IMG/VR virus record: IMGVR_UViG_3300013109_000271 | Span: 1 to 22,123 of that record | Source: a virus | Direction: 5' to 3' (one strand) | DNA length: 22,123 nt | In this document: one piece after another, positions 2,790-20,470 of the stretch | How positions within the stretch are numbered: position 1 is the first letter of the stretch | Layout of the letters: the number at the start of each line of letters is the position of its first letter | The notes under the pieces: generated by a model | What the model was told of the DNA's origin: nothing | Seen by the model: only the letters and a program-made list of their open reading frames with translations | The model's database searches: none | Translations under genes and position numbers: made by a program

Positions 2790-3119
2790 ATGTTTCCTGA
2801 GTATTTTAGTGCAGGTGATGATTATATTAGGTATATCAAAAAACGAGCGCAACTAACTATTAAGTTGTTGAAATGCCAAGATGAGGAGGAGAAACGAAAG
2901 ATACAAAATAGTATTACTAAAATCAACTCATTTATATACGCTAAGGATAAACCATTTAAGGCGGCAGAGGTACTAAAAGACTTTAATTTAAAATATGAGG
3001 AGGCTTGTATTAAGTTAAGACAACATACAGGAGGGGGAAAGGATATAAAAGATTATACAGTAATTGAATATTACACATTGCTAAAAGTATTAGAAAAAGA
3101 ATCTAGAAAAAACAAGTAA
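2790..3119 (+). CDS. Hypothetical helical protein, possible frameshift partner
   Basis: 109 aa, ATG two bases after the stop of the previous gene. The sequence is charged and helical (RAQLTIKLLKCQDEEEKRK) and ends with YTVIEYYTLLKVLEKES, a short helical motif with paired tyrosines. No family is recognised. It can be translated from its own ATG or, if the ten-A run at 2760-2769 is slippery, as the C-terminal half of a fusion. There is no stop in this frame between the A run and the ATG. Confidence 0.72.
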   Translation: MFPEYFSAGDDYIRYIKKRAQLTIKLLKCQDEEEKRKIQNSITKINSFIYAKDKPFKAAEVLKDFNLKYEEACIKLRQHTGGGKDIKDYTVIEYYTLLKVLEKESRKNK

Positions 3120-7009: not shown

Positions 7010-7663
7010 TCATCTGTTGTTTGATGGTGTGATAAATTGGTAATCAGAATAAATATCTAAAACATCATCATCTGATAAATTAAACCATTCACCGTACTTT
7101 CTTTTTTCTTTGTAATCTTCGTGTATTATATTCTCAAAGTCAGTATCACACCAACCTATCAATATTAATTCCACACCAAATTCTCTCGATAGTGACGCTA
7201 TTCTTTTCCCTAAATTCTTCGTCTTACCTACCTTAATCAAATTAGTGTCAGGGTTTTTTAATATATATGTCCCATAACCAATAGAACATCTTTTAATATC
7301 ATCATTGGGTAATTTATTATATAAATTCAAATCAACATCTTTAATAGCAGACATATCTTCTAATAAATTACCATCATATAAATTCATTATTGTCTTAGCT
7401 ACCGTTTTTGCATCTGCTAAAGTTGTTTTGATTATGATATTTATTTTAGGATGCACAAATGTTTTTCTGTTTTCTCCTCTACCAGTAACTTTATACAATC
7501 CTAACGCTTTTAACACCTTTATCACACCATTTCTATTTACTTTAGATGTGAAATCACCATAAGATATATTTACACCATCTTCTCTTAATACAGATATAAC
7601 TCTATCTGCAAACTGAGTACTTCTAAAATCGTACTGTTTAACTTTTTGATCTAATTCAACCAT
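7010..7663 (-). CDS. T5orf172/GIY-YIG-like protein with N-terminal DNA-binding-like region
   Basis: 217 aa from the ATG at 7663; a longer frame to 7765 is unlikely because its extra 34 residues are low-complexity and come from the AT-rich leader. The C-terminal half shows the T5orf172/MUG113 pattern: GYGTYILKNPDTNLIKVGKT (129-148), then R154, then E177-H181 and GEWFNLSDDD (191-200), a GIY-YIG-related fold. The N-terminal half (about 10-75) is helical and may form a winged-helix domain. Such domains occur in phage antirepressor- and nuclease-like proteins. It is the first gene of a separate leftward unit that follows a terminator at 7874-7894. Confidence 0.75.
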   Translation of the reverse strand: MVELDQKVKQYDFRSTQFADRVISVLREDGVNISYGDFTSKVNRNGVIKVLKALGLYKVTGRGENRKTFVHPKINIIIKTTLADAKTVAKTIMNLYDGNLLEDMSAIKDVDLNLYNKLPNDDIKRCSIGYGTYILKNPDTNLIKVGKTKNLGKRIASLSREFGVELILIGWCDTDFENIIHEDYKEKRKYGEWFNLSDDDVLDIYSDYQFITPSNNR

Positions 7664-7901
7664 AATAATAAATACTGTTTGATTAATTATACTGTAAATA
7701 TAATAAAAAGTTTTATTTATAACTATAAAAATATTAAGTTTTATGAAATATGCATAATTCCTCACATTTAAATATTTATTATTATATATATAATGCAGTG
7801 GATAAAAATAGATATTTATTTACATATCTTTACTAGCCATCATTGGCAAGTAATCCCGCCCTAAAAACAAATAAGCCCATCTAAAAGACAGGCTAATTAG
7901 G
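7664..7901. other. AT-rich non-coding stretch before the T5orf172 unit
   Basis: 238 bases without a credible gene. It contains the leftward terminator at 7874-7894, a small GC-richer island (about 7836-7862) with a GCCA/TGGC mini-dyad, and a very AT-rich leader next to the T5orf172 start. A promoter for that gene is expected here, but no exact TAnnTTTG element is visible on the - strand. The closest is TATATTTA close to the gene. Confidence 0.5.
7862..7894 (-). terminator. Leftward intrinsic terminator with strand-specific wobble pairs
   Basis: On the - strand AGCCTGTC (7894-7887) pairs with GATGGGCT (7881-7874) around the loop TTTTA, giving 8 bp including two G-U wobbles, followed by a U-rich tail (TATTTGTTTTT). 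The wobbles become A-C mismatches on the opposite strand, so the hairpin is good only for leftward RNA. It lies just after the stop of the gene at 7902-8219. Confidence 0.72.
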
Positions 7902-9541: not shown

Positions 9542-10156
9542 TTATAAATATTTTGGGTTAATAAATTGGTTTAAATTTGGTTTGAAATAGTTAGGACCTT
9601 TCATTACTTTACCATCTTCTCTAAAGATTGGCTTACCGTGTCCATCTAGTTTAGACATGTTACTCATATGAACCTCTGTAAATGCTTTCTCAAATGCACC
9701 TGATTTAAAGATTCCTGCATCTGTCAAATCGTTAAAACAAGATAATACATATATGCACAGACTGACATTCCAAGATAAGGTATTAGAGGCTGTAATTGTT
9801 CCATTAATATAATCATGCTTAACTACACTTAAAAGGTTATCTATTTTTACTGGGTATTCTGTAGGGTAATCAAGTTCCTCAGCTAGTGAGTTTTGAACAA
9901 ATGCACCGAACTGTCTAAAACCATGATAATGTGCAGTTCCAAAGTTGATATATAATATATCTACCAATGCGTCTAAAACTTCTGTGTAATTGTGATCATC
10001 AAAAGCTTTGAATAACTCCTTTAACTCCTCATCAACAAGTTTAAACCTTAACGCTCTACCTTTTTCCTTACCCATGCTTAAACTGTGTGTCTGTGAGTGC
10101 TCAAACGCCTCTTGGAAGTCCCAAACTTGGCGTAATTGTTTACTAATATCTCTCAT
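9542..10156 (-). CDS. MazG-like all-alpha NTP pyrophosphohydrolase
   Basis: 204 aa. The metal-binding motifs of the all-alpha NTP-PPase/MazG superfamily are visible: E43-E44 and E47 in FKLVDEELKELFKAF, then E59, D62 and D66 in EVLDALVDILY, followed by FGTAHYHGF. The C-terminal region EVHMSNMSKLDGHGKPIF is the extension common in phage PRA-PH-like proteins. It should hydrolyse a nucleoside triphosphate to the monophosphate and pyrophosphate; the substrate is unknown (dUTP, modified nucleotides or (p)ppGpp-like alarmones have been suggested for relatives). It shares one base with the upstream annealing gene. Confidence 0.8.
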   Translation of the reverse strand: MRDISKQLRQVWDFQEAFEHSQTHSLSMGKEKGRALRFKLVDEELKELFKAFDDHNYTEVLDALVDILYINFGTAHYHGFRQFGAFVQNSLAEELDYPTEYPVKIDNLLSVVKHDYINGTITASNTLSWNVSLCIYVLSCFNDLTDAGIFKSGAFEKAFTEVHMSNMSKLDGHGKPIFREDGKVMKGPNYFKPNLNQFINPKYL

Positions 10157-10908
10157 TACTTAACTGCTAAATATTCTGAATAATCTTTATCTAATTTGTT
10201 TAAAACCTGCTGACCGTCAATGTAAGCATTTAAAATACTGTGTTTAATACTATCTCTTTTTGTTTTGCTTTCCGCATCACGATAAGCCGTAAAAGCTTTG
10301 CTATAACCTTGCGTATTAGTCCCTAACTTTGGTTTTGTTTTGGTATTAGTTGTAGTTGCTTTATTAGTAGTTGTACTTGTGGATGATGTACTGTTAGAGG
10401 TACTGGGTTTCTTACCATGATACCAACGTAATGTATTACCTTTGTAAGCACCTAAGAATACTAAATTTCCTTGCTTATCTCTTATCATTTCCCATTTTAG
10501 AGTATTAATAAAAAACTTACCACCATTATTATTTAACTCATCTTGGTTAAGCTTAATTCTAATCAAAGGCATATCATACAATTCTCTGCCAATACCCCAA
10601 TTAAAACACGCTCTTTTAAAACTATCAGATGCTAAACCTTTTTCTTTCTCAGTATTGCTCTCTGTACCTGTGTCCTCTTTACTAATCCACTGCTTTTTAT
10701 CATCACACCAAATAGAGACTACGCAGTTTTTATTGTCTCTTGTATGCTCTCTTTTCCAATTTAAAGCGCCTACAACATCATCTAAACGTTGCATGTCTAC
10801 ACGTGCATCTTTGTAAGCTAAAACGATTACATGACCGTTTTTAATTGATTGAGTCCTAAACTCTATATTTTCAATTGCTAGTGGTTCGCTTAATTTACTT
10901 ATATCCAT
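10156..10908 (-). CDS. Rad52/22-type single-strand annealing recombinase
   Basis: 250 aa. The Rad52 family core is clear: RLDDVVGALNWK (41-52), WISKEDTGTESN (74-85), EKGLASDSFKRACFNWGIGRELYDMP (89-114). The conserved SDxFKRA and GIGRELY segments form the DNA-annealing groove in this family. A Ser/Thr-rich linker (about 169-190) leads to a helical C-terminal tail that may contact the SSB-like protein. Phage members pair complementary ssDNA during replication and recombination. Leftward neighbours are the MazG-like and DUF3127 genes, consistent with a recombination module. Confidence 0.87.
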   Translation of the reverse strand: MDISKLSEPLAIENIEFRTQSIKNGHVIVLAYKDARVDMQRLDDVVGALNWKREHTRDNKNCVVSIWCDDKKQWISKEDTGTESNTEKEKGLASDSFKRACFNWGIGRELYDMPLIRIKLNQDELNNNGGKFFINTLKWEMIRDKQGNLVFLGAYKGNTLRWYHGKKPSTSNSTSSTSTTTNKATTTNTKTKPKLGTNTQGYSKAFTAYRDAESKTKRDSIKHSILNAYIDGQQVLNKLDKDYSEYLAVK

Positions 10909-11265: not shown

Positions 11266-11463
11266 CTATCTACTTAATTTCTTTCTATTTTTAATTTCCT
11301 CTGCTATTGTAATTGCTGACCTAACCAATCTTTTACGGTCGAATCCTGCTTTCGCTTCTCTCTCTTCACGCTTGCGTTTAAACTCTTCAAAACTATCAGT
11401 ACTTAGTTTATGATCTGTACCAGGTGCGGGGGTGTCGTTTATATCTGTATTATAATAAGTCAT
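11266..11463 (-). CDS. Small charged protein, second gene of the leftward operon
   Basis: 65 aa when started at MTYYNTDINDTP (11463); an in-frame ATG at 11481 would add six residues. The C-terminal half is very basic and helical (FEEFKRKREEREAKAGFDRKRLVRSA). It overlaps the upstream gene by 14 bases. No family recognised. The highly charged helix could bind nucleic acid or RNA polymerase, but nothing more specific is visible. Confidence 0.6.
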   Translation of the reverse strand: MTYYNTDINDTPAPGTDHKLSTDSFEEFKRKREEREAKAGFDRKRLVRSAITIAEEIKNRKKLSR

Positions 11464-11653
11464 GGTTTGTAATAATTTCATTGTTAAACATATCAATAGT
11501 CTTTTGGATAGATGTAATTCTATTAACTAAATCATCTGTATCTGTGCAACCGAATTTAATCCTGTTTTCTAACTCAACTTGTAATCTTGTTCTATCCTCA
11601 ACTAATCTAAATGTTGCTTTGATAATATTTACTCTGTTTAATTCTGCTTTCAT
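11450..11653 (-). CDS. First small protein of the leftward early operon
   Basis: 67 aa beginning MKAELNRVNIIKATF (ATG 11653 in the context CAGTTATG; an upstream in-frame ATG at 11692 falls inside the promoter -7 element and is rejected). Predicted helical with a central charged stretch (DRTRLQVELENRIKFG). No family recognised. It lies about 30 bases downstream of the expected start point of the operator-controlled leftward promoter, so it would be expressed first. Confidence 0.65.
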   Translation of the reverse strand: MKAELNRVNIIKATFRLVEDRTRLQVELENRIKFGCTDTDDLVNRITSIQKTIDMFNNEIITNHDLL

Positions 11654-11689
11654 AACTGTAATTATTTGCGTTTGATTATTAGAACGATA

Positions 11690-11720
11690 CAAAGGTAGTA
11701 AAGGTTATATATATAACCAA
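11690..11720 (-). promoter_or_regulatory. Leftward early promoter (Bacteroidota type)
   Basis: On the - strand TTG (11720-11718), a 20-base spacer and TACCTTTG (11697-11690) match the Bacteroidota primary sigma promoter form TTG-N20-TAnnTTTG. The predicted start point is about 11683, giving a leader of roughly 30 bases to the ATG at 11653. It drives the recombination/SSB block leftwards. A perfect 16-bp palindrome fills most of the spacer, so it is probably repressed by a dimeric DNA-binding protein. Confidence 0.78.
11703..11718. promoter_or_regulatory. Operator: perfect 16-bp palindrome inside the leftward promoter
   Basis: GGTTATATATATAACC is a perfect palindrome. It begins on the G of the TTG box of the leftward promoter and fills the spacer towards the -7 element, so a bound protein would block RNA polymerase. 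A related dyad occupies the same position in the rightward promoter (11946-11961). As RNA it could also form a weak hairpin, but the promoter overlap fits an operator better. Confidence 0.65.
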
Positions 11721-11725
11721 CTTTT

Positions 11726-11905
11726 TTATGAATTATTTTTAAACAGCTCGTCGTTTACATCGCAATCTACTATATAATAACGTCTTCTATCATTATCAAA
11801 ATACTCTACTAATTTACGCTTTTTAACCAACTTTGCTATATAAGGCTGTGTAACACCTTTTAATTTGGCGTATGCTGTCTGTGTGTACAATTTACTTTTA
11901 TCCAT
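11726..11905 (-). CDS. Small helix-turn-helix protein, candidate early repressor
   Basis: 59 aa, MDKSKLYTQTAYAKLKG start, ATG at 11905. Residues 7-33 (TQTAYAKLKGVTQPYIAKLVKKRKL) have the form of a MerR/excisionase-type HTH: short helix, Gly turn, recognition helix with basic residues. A beta-like segment (RRRYYIVDCDV) follows. The gene sits between two promoters that carry matching dyads, the arrangement expected for a repressor or switch protein, and its own leftward promoter element (11926-11933) lies next to the second dyad, suggesting autoregulation. Identity as repressor versus activator is inference. Confidence 0.7.
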   Translation of the reverse strand: MDKSKLYTQTAYAKLKGVTQPYIAKLVKKRKLVEYFDNDRRRYYIVDCDVNDELFKNNS

Positions 11906-11925
11906 ATTTTTAAATTTTGTTTATG

Positions 11926-11933
11926 CAAATATA
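11926..11933 (-). promoter_or_regulatory. Probable -7 element for the small HTH gene
   Basis: CAAATATA on the + strand is TATATTTG on the - strand, an exact TAnnTTTG match, about 20 bases from the HTH gene ATG. No good TTG lies at the 20-base spacing; instead the 11946-11961 dyad covers the upstream element position. The promoter is likely weak or regulated. Confidence 0.5.
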
Positions 11934-11943
11934 TTGAAATAAT

Positions 11944-11974
11944 TTGGTAATTACTATAACCTTCTTTAACTTTG
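11944..11974 (+). promoter_or_regulatory. Rightward early promoter (Bacteroidota type)
   Basis: TTG (11944-11946), a 20-base spacer and TAACTTTG (11967-11974) match TTG-N20-TAnnTTTG exactly as in the leftward promoter. The predicted start is about 11980, 34 bases before the ATG at 12014. It should drive the rightward block towards replication genes. The spacer holds a degenerate copy of the leftward operator. Confidence 0.78.
11946..11961. promoter_or_regulatory. Second operator-like dyad, in the rightward promoter
   Basis: GGTAATTACTATAACC shares 12 of 16 positions with the perfect palindrome at 11703-11718 and keeps the GGT/TAACC ends. It occupies the identical place relative to the TTG and TAnnTTTG elements of the rightward promoter, and also overlaps the upstream region of the HTH gene promoter, so one protein could control all three. 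Confidence 0.6.
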
Positions 11975-12013
11975 TAACGTTAAGTCAATCAAAAGGTTTA
12001 AAATTATAAAGTT

Positions 12014-12169
12014 ATGAGAGTATTTTTAAAAGTAGATGAAAAGCGTAAGCAAGATTTAATAGAGTTAGCAAACTATTCTAGATCTATCGAAGTGCAAGGA
12101 GAGTATTATAAAGGCTGTCAGTTGATCAAACATATTAAAGGAGATAAAACAGTTTTAGAAATTAAATAA
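12014..12169 (+). CDS. First small protein of the rightward early operon
   Basis: 51 aa beginning MRVFLKVDEKRKQDLIEL, ATG in the context ATAAAGTTATG. A short beta strand, a basic helix, and a C-terminal strand region (YYKGCQLIKHIKGDKTVLEI) suggest a small alpha/beta fold. No family recognised. It directly follows the operator-controlled rightward promoter, a usual place for immediate-early takeover peptides, but function is unknown. Confidence 0.68.
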   Translation: MRVFLKVDEKRKQDLIELANYSRSIEVQGEYYKGCQLIKHIKGDKTVLEIK

Positions 12170-14832: not shown

Positions 14833-14863
14833 TTGTATAATAAATTACAAATGTATATATTTG
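14833..14863 (+). promoter_or_regulatory. Rightward promoter for the replication block
   Basis: TTG (14833-14835), a 20-base spacer and TATATTTG (14856-14863) match the same TTG-N20-TAnnTTTG form as the divergent early promoters. The expected start point is about 14869, 16 bases before the ATG at 14885. It follows a terminator, so replication genes have their own promoter. A palindrome overlaps the -7 element. Confidence 0.78.
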
Positions 14864-19945: not shown

Positions 19946-20470
19946 ATGATTATAAATAGGATTTGGGAAATGCCTAATAAAAATACATTTGATATAAAGT
20001 GTATAAGTAGGTTAGTGAATAAATATGCGCATAAATCCAGTAATAGTATAGATCCTTTTGCTAATAAAAACAAGATAGCAAATATTACAAATGATTTAGA
20101 TAGTCAATATAATACAGATTTTAATTTAGATGCGCTAGAGTTTTTACAAATATTTGGTAATAAGTCAGTAGATTTAGTGTTGTTCGATCCTCCTTATTCA
20201 CCTAGGCAAGTAAGTGAATGTTATAAAGCATTAGGTAAAACTGTTAACATGGAAACTACACAATCATCATTTTGGAGTAAGCTTAAAGATCAAATAAGTT
20301 TAATTACAGATGATAATGGTATTGTAATGTCTTTTGGTTGGAATTCTAACGGAATAGGAATAAACAGAGGATTTGAGATTATAGAAGTGTTAATTGTAGC
20401 GCATGGAGGAAATCATAACGATACTATATGTGTAGTTGAAAGAAAAAAGCCAACATTGTTTAATATTTAA
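19946..20470 (+). CDS. DNA adenine methyltransferase-like protein (DPPY)
   Basis: 174 aa. DPPY (81-84) in LVLFDPPYSPRQVSECY is the catalytic motif IV of N6-adenine (or N4-cytosine) methyltransferases; DPFA (36-39, SIDPFAN) resembles the motif I neighbourhood, and ITNDLD (47-52) the motif II acidic position. The GHGGNHNDT-like end (VAHGGNHNDTICVVE, 151-165) is typical of short phage DAM-like proteins. It is shorter than classical Dam enzymes, lacking an obvious target-recognition domain. Possible role: protecting phage DNA from restriction or marking it. It starts directly after the stop of the preceding gene. Confidence 0.78.
   Translation: MIINRIWEMPNKNTFDIKCISRLVNKYAHKSSNSIDPFANKNKIANITNDLDSQYNTDFNLDALEFLQIFGNKSVDLVLFDPPYSPRQVSECYKALGKTVNMETTQSSFWSKLKDQISLITDDNGIVMSFGWNSNGIGINRGFEIIEVLIVAHGGNHNDTICVVERKKPTLFNI

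Follow-up and report, generated by a model that had tools for sequence, protein, structure and literature searches.

In lambdoid phages, the immunity region is laid out as pL with its operator OL, the repressor gene, and then pRM, OR and pR. Among the Bacteroidota, promoters of the sigma-ABfr type (Flavobacterium johnsoniae, Bacteroides fragilis) combine a -33 element, TTTG or TTG, with a -7 element, TAnnTTTG. Transcript leaders of such promoters are usually longer than 10 nt. The -7 consensus is TAHHTTTG, transcription starts 4-5 nt past this element, and in F. johnsoniae the leaders average 33 nt (PMC6847099). In the literature that we searched, we did not find an early switch or operator that had been mapped in a Bacteroidota phage.

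The window analyzed here is one whole IMG/VR record of 22,123 bases, for which no DNA match was found among annotated phages. Its gene orientation diverges at about 11.7-12.0 kb, with a leftward block that encodes a Rad52-type annealing protein (SSAP), a single-strand binding protein (SSB) and a PRA-PH protein, and a rightward block that encodes a primase-helicase. The genes and promoters of concern are as follows:

10156-10908, minus strand: Rad52-type single-strand annealing protein of the leftward block (PF04098, E=3e-6)
11450-11653, minus strand: 67-aa gene that opens the leftward block, no assigned function; predicted leader ~32 nt
11690-11720, minus strand: P_L, putative leftward early promoter, TTG-N20-TACCTTTG, by consensus fit; predicted start ~11685
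11726-11905, minus strand: 59-aa ORF, probable small HTH DNA-binding protein and candidate regulator, by weak matches
11944-11974, plus strand: P_R, putative rightward early promoter, TTG-N20-TAACTTTG, by consensus fit; predicted start ~11979
12014-12169, plus strand: 51-aa gene that opens the rightward block, no assigned function; predicted leader ~35 nt; homologue in contig L088
16330-18282, plus strand: primase-helicase of the rightward block (PF01807, E=5e-21; PF03796, E=2e-9)

The leftward block also contains a GIY-YIG/T5orf172-type protein (7010-7765, minus strand), and a DNA methyltransferase-like protein is encoded at 19946-20470 on the plus strand (PHROG 11619, 167 bits). No integrase was found among the proteins scanned, which represent part of the ORFs of this 22-kb record without structural genes. 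A Bacteroidota host is indicated by the type of promoter and by the named relatives that were found.

P_L (the reverse complement of 11690-11720, TTGGTTATATATATAACCTTTACTACCTTTG) and P_R (11944-11974, TTGGTAATTACTATAACCTTCTTTAACTTTG) agree in sequence and position with an earlier note on this DNA, which had described them as opposed promoters that both fit TTG-N20-TAnnTTTG. When spacers of 19-21 nt are allowed, three sites in the window show this pattern, namely P_L, P_R and one at 14833 on the plus strand. As in sigma-ABfr promoters (TAHHTTTG with TTG about 20 nt upstream), both boxes are present at N20 spacing, G is absent from both n positions, and the predicted leaders lie close to the published mean of 33 nt. 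P_L and P_R differ from these promoters in an extended TTGGT and in a common, phage-specific spacer containing AACC, and their starts are predicted. The fit of the boxes, the predicted leaders and the gene content of both blocks support the view that P_L and P_R belong to one family of early promoters of a Bacteroidota phage and point in opposite directions. The third site (14833-14863, TTG-N20-TATATTTG) is likewise a full-consensus promoter; its TTTG overlaps the TTG start codon of an ORF at 14861, which makes this start codon doubtful.

The likeness between P_L and P_R continues past the boxes. Over 32 aligned positions, 24 are identical on our recount, instead of the 23 reported before, and the match continues to 29 of 38 positions, through TTTGTA(T/A)CGTT. 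Of 29 non-consensus positions, 20 are alike (random pairs, P = 3e-5); among 741 pairs of TAnnTTTG sites, the two promoters rank first. An independent repeat finder returned a single 57-nt inverted repeat, its arms 72% complementary and 209 nt apart, that encloses the 59-aa ORF; the common block is larger than the earlier note had reported:

11671-11727, minus strand: left arm of the inverted repeat, 57 nt, copy 1 of the promoter block
11937-11993, plus strand: right arm of the inverted repeat, 57 nt, copy 2 of the promoter block

A gapped alignment extends the likeness to the start codons, where the final stretch is the start-codon context of many genes of this phage. A context near AAAGTTATGA, without Shine-Dalgarno sequence, is common to many genes of the window (11653, 12014, 12178, 6958, 18329 and 20483), which agrees with Kozak-like initiation as reported in Flavobacterium (PMC6847099).

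Inverted repeats could also serve a non-transcriptional role, marking an origin of replication or a stretch of invertible DNA that carries the 59-aa gene. The AT-rich palindrome described below, the minimum of cumulative GC skew near the strand switch and the 57-nt repeat around the gene would suit such a role. However, the skew changes because gene orientation switches, the promoter boxes would be coincidental, the arms are 72% alike rather than near-perfect, and a recombinase catalytic domain is absent among the proteins scanned. An origin or invertible element was rejected, as supporting genes and near-perfect repeats are lacking, and we regard it as very improbable.

A scan for contigs sharing the geometry of the promoter pair yielded 79 pairs including that of the window, which is tied second by match count and first by a score weighted for rare letters. 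Four contigs of Bacteroidota-type phages (L196, L200, L231 and L198) were used for comparison. They share with the window TTG-N20-TAHHTTTG promoters with a common spacer and start region, but their families comprise about 10-30 promoters, often in tandem, whereas the window has one divergent pair. The families of L231 (G440) and L198 (G443) have 12-17 similar promoters each, with phage-specific spacers and start regions. Promoter families of this sort were found neither in crAss001 nor in a B. fragilis phage. A match of at least 20/29, the level of the window pair, is reached by 4.5-31% of pairs within the four phages and by 0.5-0.7% of pairs between phages, in a sample that is biased because contigs were chosen for promoter pairs or dyads. 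Within-phage pairs in these contigs are about as alike, so that P_L and P_R resemble each other in the way that members of a single phage's promoter family do.

We favor the reading, with a probability of about 0.5, that P_L and P_R are divergent early promoters that are copies of one phage-specific module, are read by the host polymerase and fire together. The primary Bacteroidota RNA polymerase of the host would read both; P_L would drive the genes for recombination, P_R those for replication. Each would be a copy of a module that spans the -33 element, the spacer, the -7 element and the first transcribed stretch, and such copies would be expected to fire jointly on infection. The sequences, their fit to the consensus, the common block and the gene layout are observed; we infer transcription from both promoters, its early timing, and an origin of the pair by duplication. 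The common spacer would be mainly promoter-family sequence, with TTGGT as a frequent extended -33 and TTTGTA frequent around the start.

Inside the spacers lie the two dyads from which the earlier note had proposed that one dimeric protein controls both early blocks:

11703-11718, no strand assigned: GGTTATATATATAACC, perfect 16-bp dyad within the spacer of P_L; as RNA, a hairpin of ~-5 kcal/mol
11946-11961, no strand assigned: GGTAATTACTATAACC, imperfect dyad within the spacer of P_R; 12 of 16 positions as in the P_L dyad, 5 of 8 pairs symmetric

The P_L dyad is indeed perfect and is the sole perfect 16-bp palindrome in the window. By chance 0.92 would be expected (Markov shuffles of the AT-rich window), and a perfect palindrome inside a promoter spacer is improbable (~0.0003 per 21-mer). 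For the P_R dyad the conservation relative to P_L holds, but its own symmetry is weak, as 5 of 8 pairs are reached by 3.9% of the 16-mers in the window. The dyads do occupy the same register, which is not independent evidence because both sites are N20 promoters aligned on their boxes. Between P_L and P_R, 12 of 16 positions are conserved inside the dyad, and of the non-consensus positions outside it 8 of 13 are, so that conservation is not clearly higher in the dyad.

The two arms of the dyad differ in how ordinary they are. GG at positions 3-4 (TTGG) occurs in 56 of 109 other promoters and TTGGT in 38, so that most of the left arm is an ordinary extended -33. By contrast, CC at element positions 17-18 is present in both window promoters and in 0/109 others, which means that the two resemble each other in more than ordinary promoter sequence. 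AACC as a whole is confined to the window pair among the promoters compared, and this right arm is the strongest argument left for a specific site common to both. In the reading that we favor, the P_L dyad would be perfect because TTGGT is followed by AACC, which is unusual; the likeness of the promoters can be explained without this dyad, which may be incidental or may also act as a weak hairpin that closes the transcript of the 59-aa gene.

The candidate regulator would be the 59-aa protein. Its profile matches are weak, with HTH_3 at E=0.048, PHROG HTH/regulator families at E=0.016-0.019 and a PHROG terminase small subunit at E=5e-4, none above curated cut-offs. The structure model from the single sequence is poor (mean pLDDT 60). 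A homologue search gave three weak viral matches, two of them to a terminase small subunit-like gene; none was found in 395 Bacteroidia genomes, and a relative in a B. fragilis phage sits in a one-direction operon. The gene may have a promoter of its own:

11926-11933, minus strand: tentative -7 element TATATTTG, candidate promoter of the 59-aa gene

The corresponding -33 position, ~11954-11956, reads TAG instead of TTG and lies inside the P_R spacer.

The main alternative, plausible if less probable than the joint-firing module, is that the locus works as a switch resembling that of lambda immunity, in which a dimer of the 59-aa putative HTH protein binds both spacer dyads and blocks RNA polymerase at both promoters. 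The protein would also repress its own gene, since the tentative promoter at 11926-11933 has a -33 region that coincides in part with the P_R site. The topology, with a promoter and dyad on either side of the regulator gene, favors such a switch, as do the exact copies of GGTNATNNNNATNACC, found at the P_L and P_R sites only in the entire window, the AACC arm, and variation between the dyads that is mostly central. As in the lambdoid immunity region, a gene with a putative regulatory role lies between divergent early promoters and shares the orientation of P_L, recombination genes are to the left and replication genes to the right, and the dyads overlap both promoters. In contrast to that region, there is one dyad per promoter rather than operator clusters, the 59-aa protein has no evident dimerization domain, and an integrase was not seen among the proteins scanned in the 22 kb. 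The resemblance is one of layout, with no claim of sequence homology, and the operator role is putative. Should the operator model be right, the absence of an integrase among the proteins scanned would make a Cro-type early shut-off likelier than a lysogeny switch. Counting against the operator model are the symmetry of the P_R dyad at 5 of 8 pairs only, the weak HTH assignment and poor model of the 59-aa protein, a dyad not clearly better kept than the remainder of the block, and searches that yielded no relative with both sites.

Several searches, including IMG/VR and the 395 genomes, covered relatives with both promoters and found none; the pattern search of IMG/VR for the same block gave no match. 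Among 80 loci of SSAP relatives and the relatives of the helicase, synteny of the promoter region was seen only in L088, the only syntenic relative found. This contig begins with GTAACGTTA at the G of the P_R -7 box and thus misses the promoters; this start region is identical to the window just past the -7 box, and the remaining leader has diverged. That its positions 1-10 start exactly at the G of the box possibly reflects a break in the assembly where a promoter is repeated. Looser block patterns gave 28 matches that lack a second opposed copy and were taken as chance. The 395 genomes gave seven block matches, the best of which (L282) lies at an apparent host gene and was likewise taken as chance. 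One genome scanned for a close prophage contained none.

The position of P_L suggests yet another explanation, in which its dyad is the end hairpin of the 59-aa transcript and fills the spacer of the next promoter by chance; because no rightward gene precedes P_R, the latter would hold only a decayed or partial copy. P_L starts 5 nt past the end of the 59-aa coding sequence, and the hairpin is more stable at P_L (-4.7 to -5.3 kcal/mol) than at P_R (-1.2). Strong spacer hairpins 1-18 nt past a stop codon, with differing arm sequences, also occur in L200, L196, L206 and L234. The L200 record has six spacer dyads with arms of at least 6 (0.8 by column shuffles), in which the arm sequences vary, the symmetry is kept and the three strongest lie 2-8 nt past the upstream stop codon; such dyads would look like hairpins that end the upstream transcript rather than the operator of one protein. 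In the L196 record four spacer dyads have arms of at least 7 (0.24 by column shuffles). Perfect hairpins fill the spacers at 7225, 7389, 7771 and 8882 of L196 (G436), three identical copies among them, and at 3099, 11503 and 12552 of L200 (G437), where the arms differ in sequence. However, strong hairpins are not significantly enriched in close tandem promoters (7/77 versus 4/115 of 192 promoters, Fisher P=0.12). The P_L hairpin itself has a z-score of only -1.7, two G-C pairs in its stem and a poor U tract with the tail UUUACU, a terminator scan was negative there, and the G+C-rich stem and U run of an intrinsic terminator are lacking. We consider a fusion of terminator and promoter improbable.

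Of the proposal that one dimeric protein controls both early blocks, the promoter pair, the layout and the AACC in both copies stand. The likeness as such is normal within one phage among those surveyed, the left arm is mostly ordinary, the P_R dyad is barely symmetric, conservation is not centered on the dyad, and the strongest spacer dyads elsewhere resemble terminators.

For Bacteroidota phages more generally, our comparison suggests that promoters of one phage share spacers so often in this group that such sharing alone is no ground for calling an operator. A speculative and rather unlikely extension is that many of these phages have a private promoter code, made up of families of primary-sigma promoters with a spacer and start region that are shared within a phage and differ between phages, and recognized or silenced by a phage factor. 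A subset would have spacer hairpins whose arms change while the symmetry is kept. If such a code exists, the window would be its minimal case, with one divergent pair and its own regulator gene. The P_L/P_R pair is in any case a small testable unit of 300 bp and one 59-aa protein, and it separates ordinary promoter sequence from a part that is possibly regulatory, the AACC.
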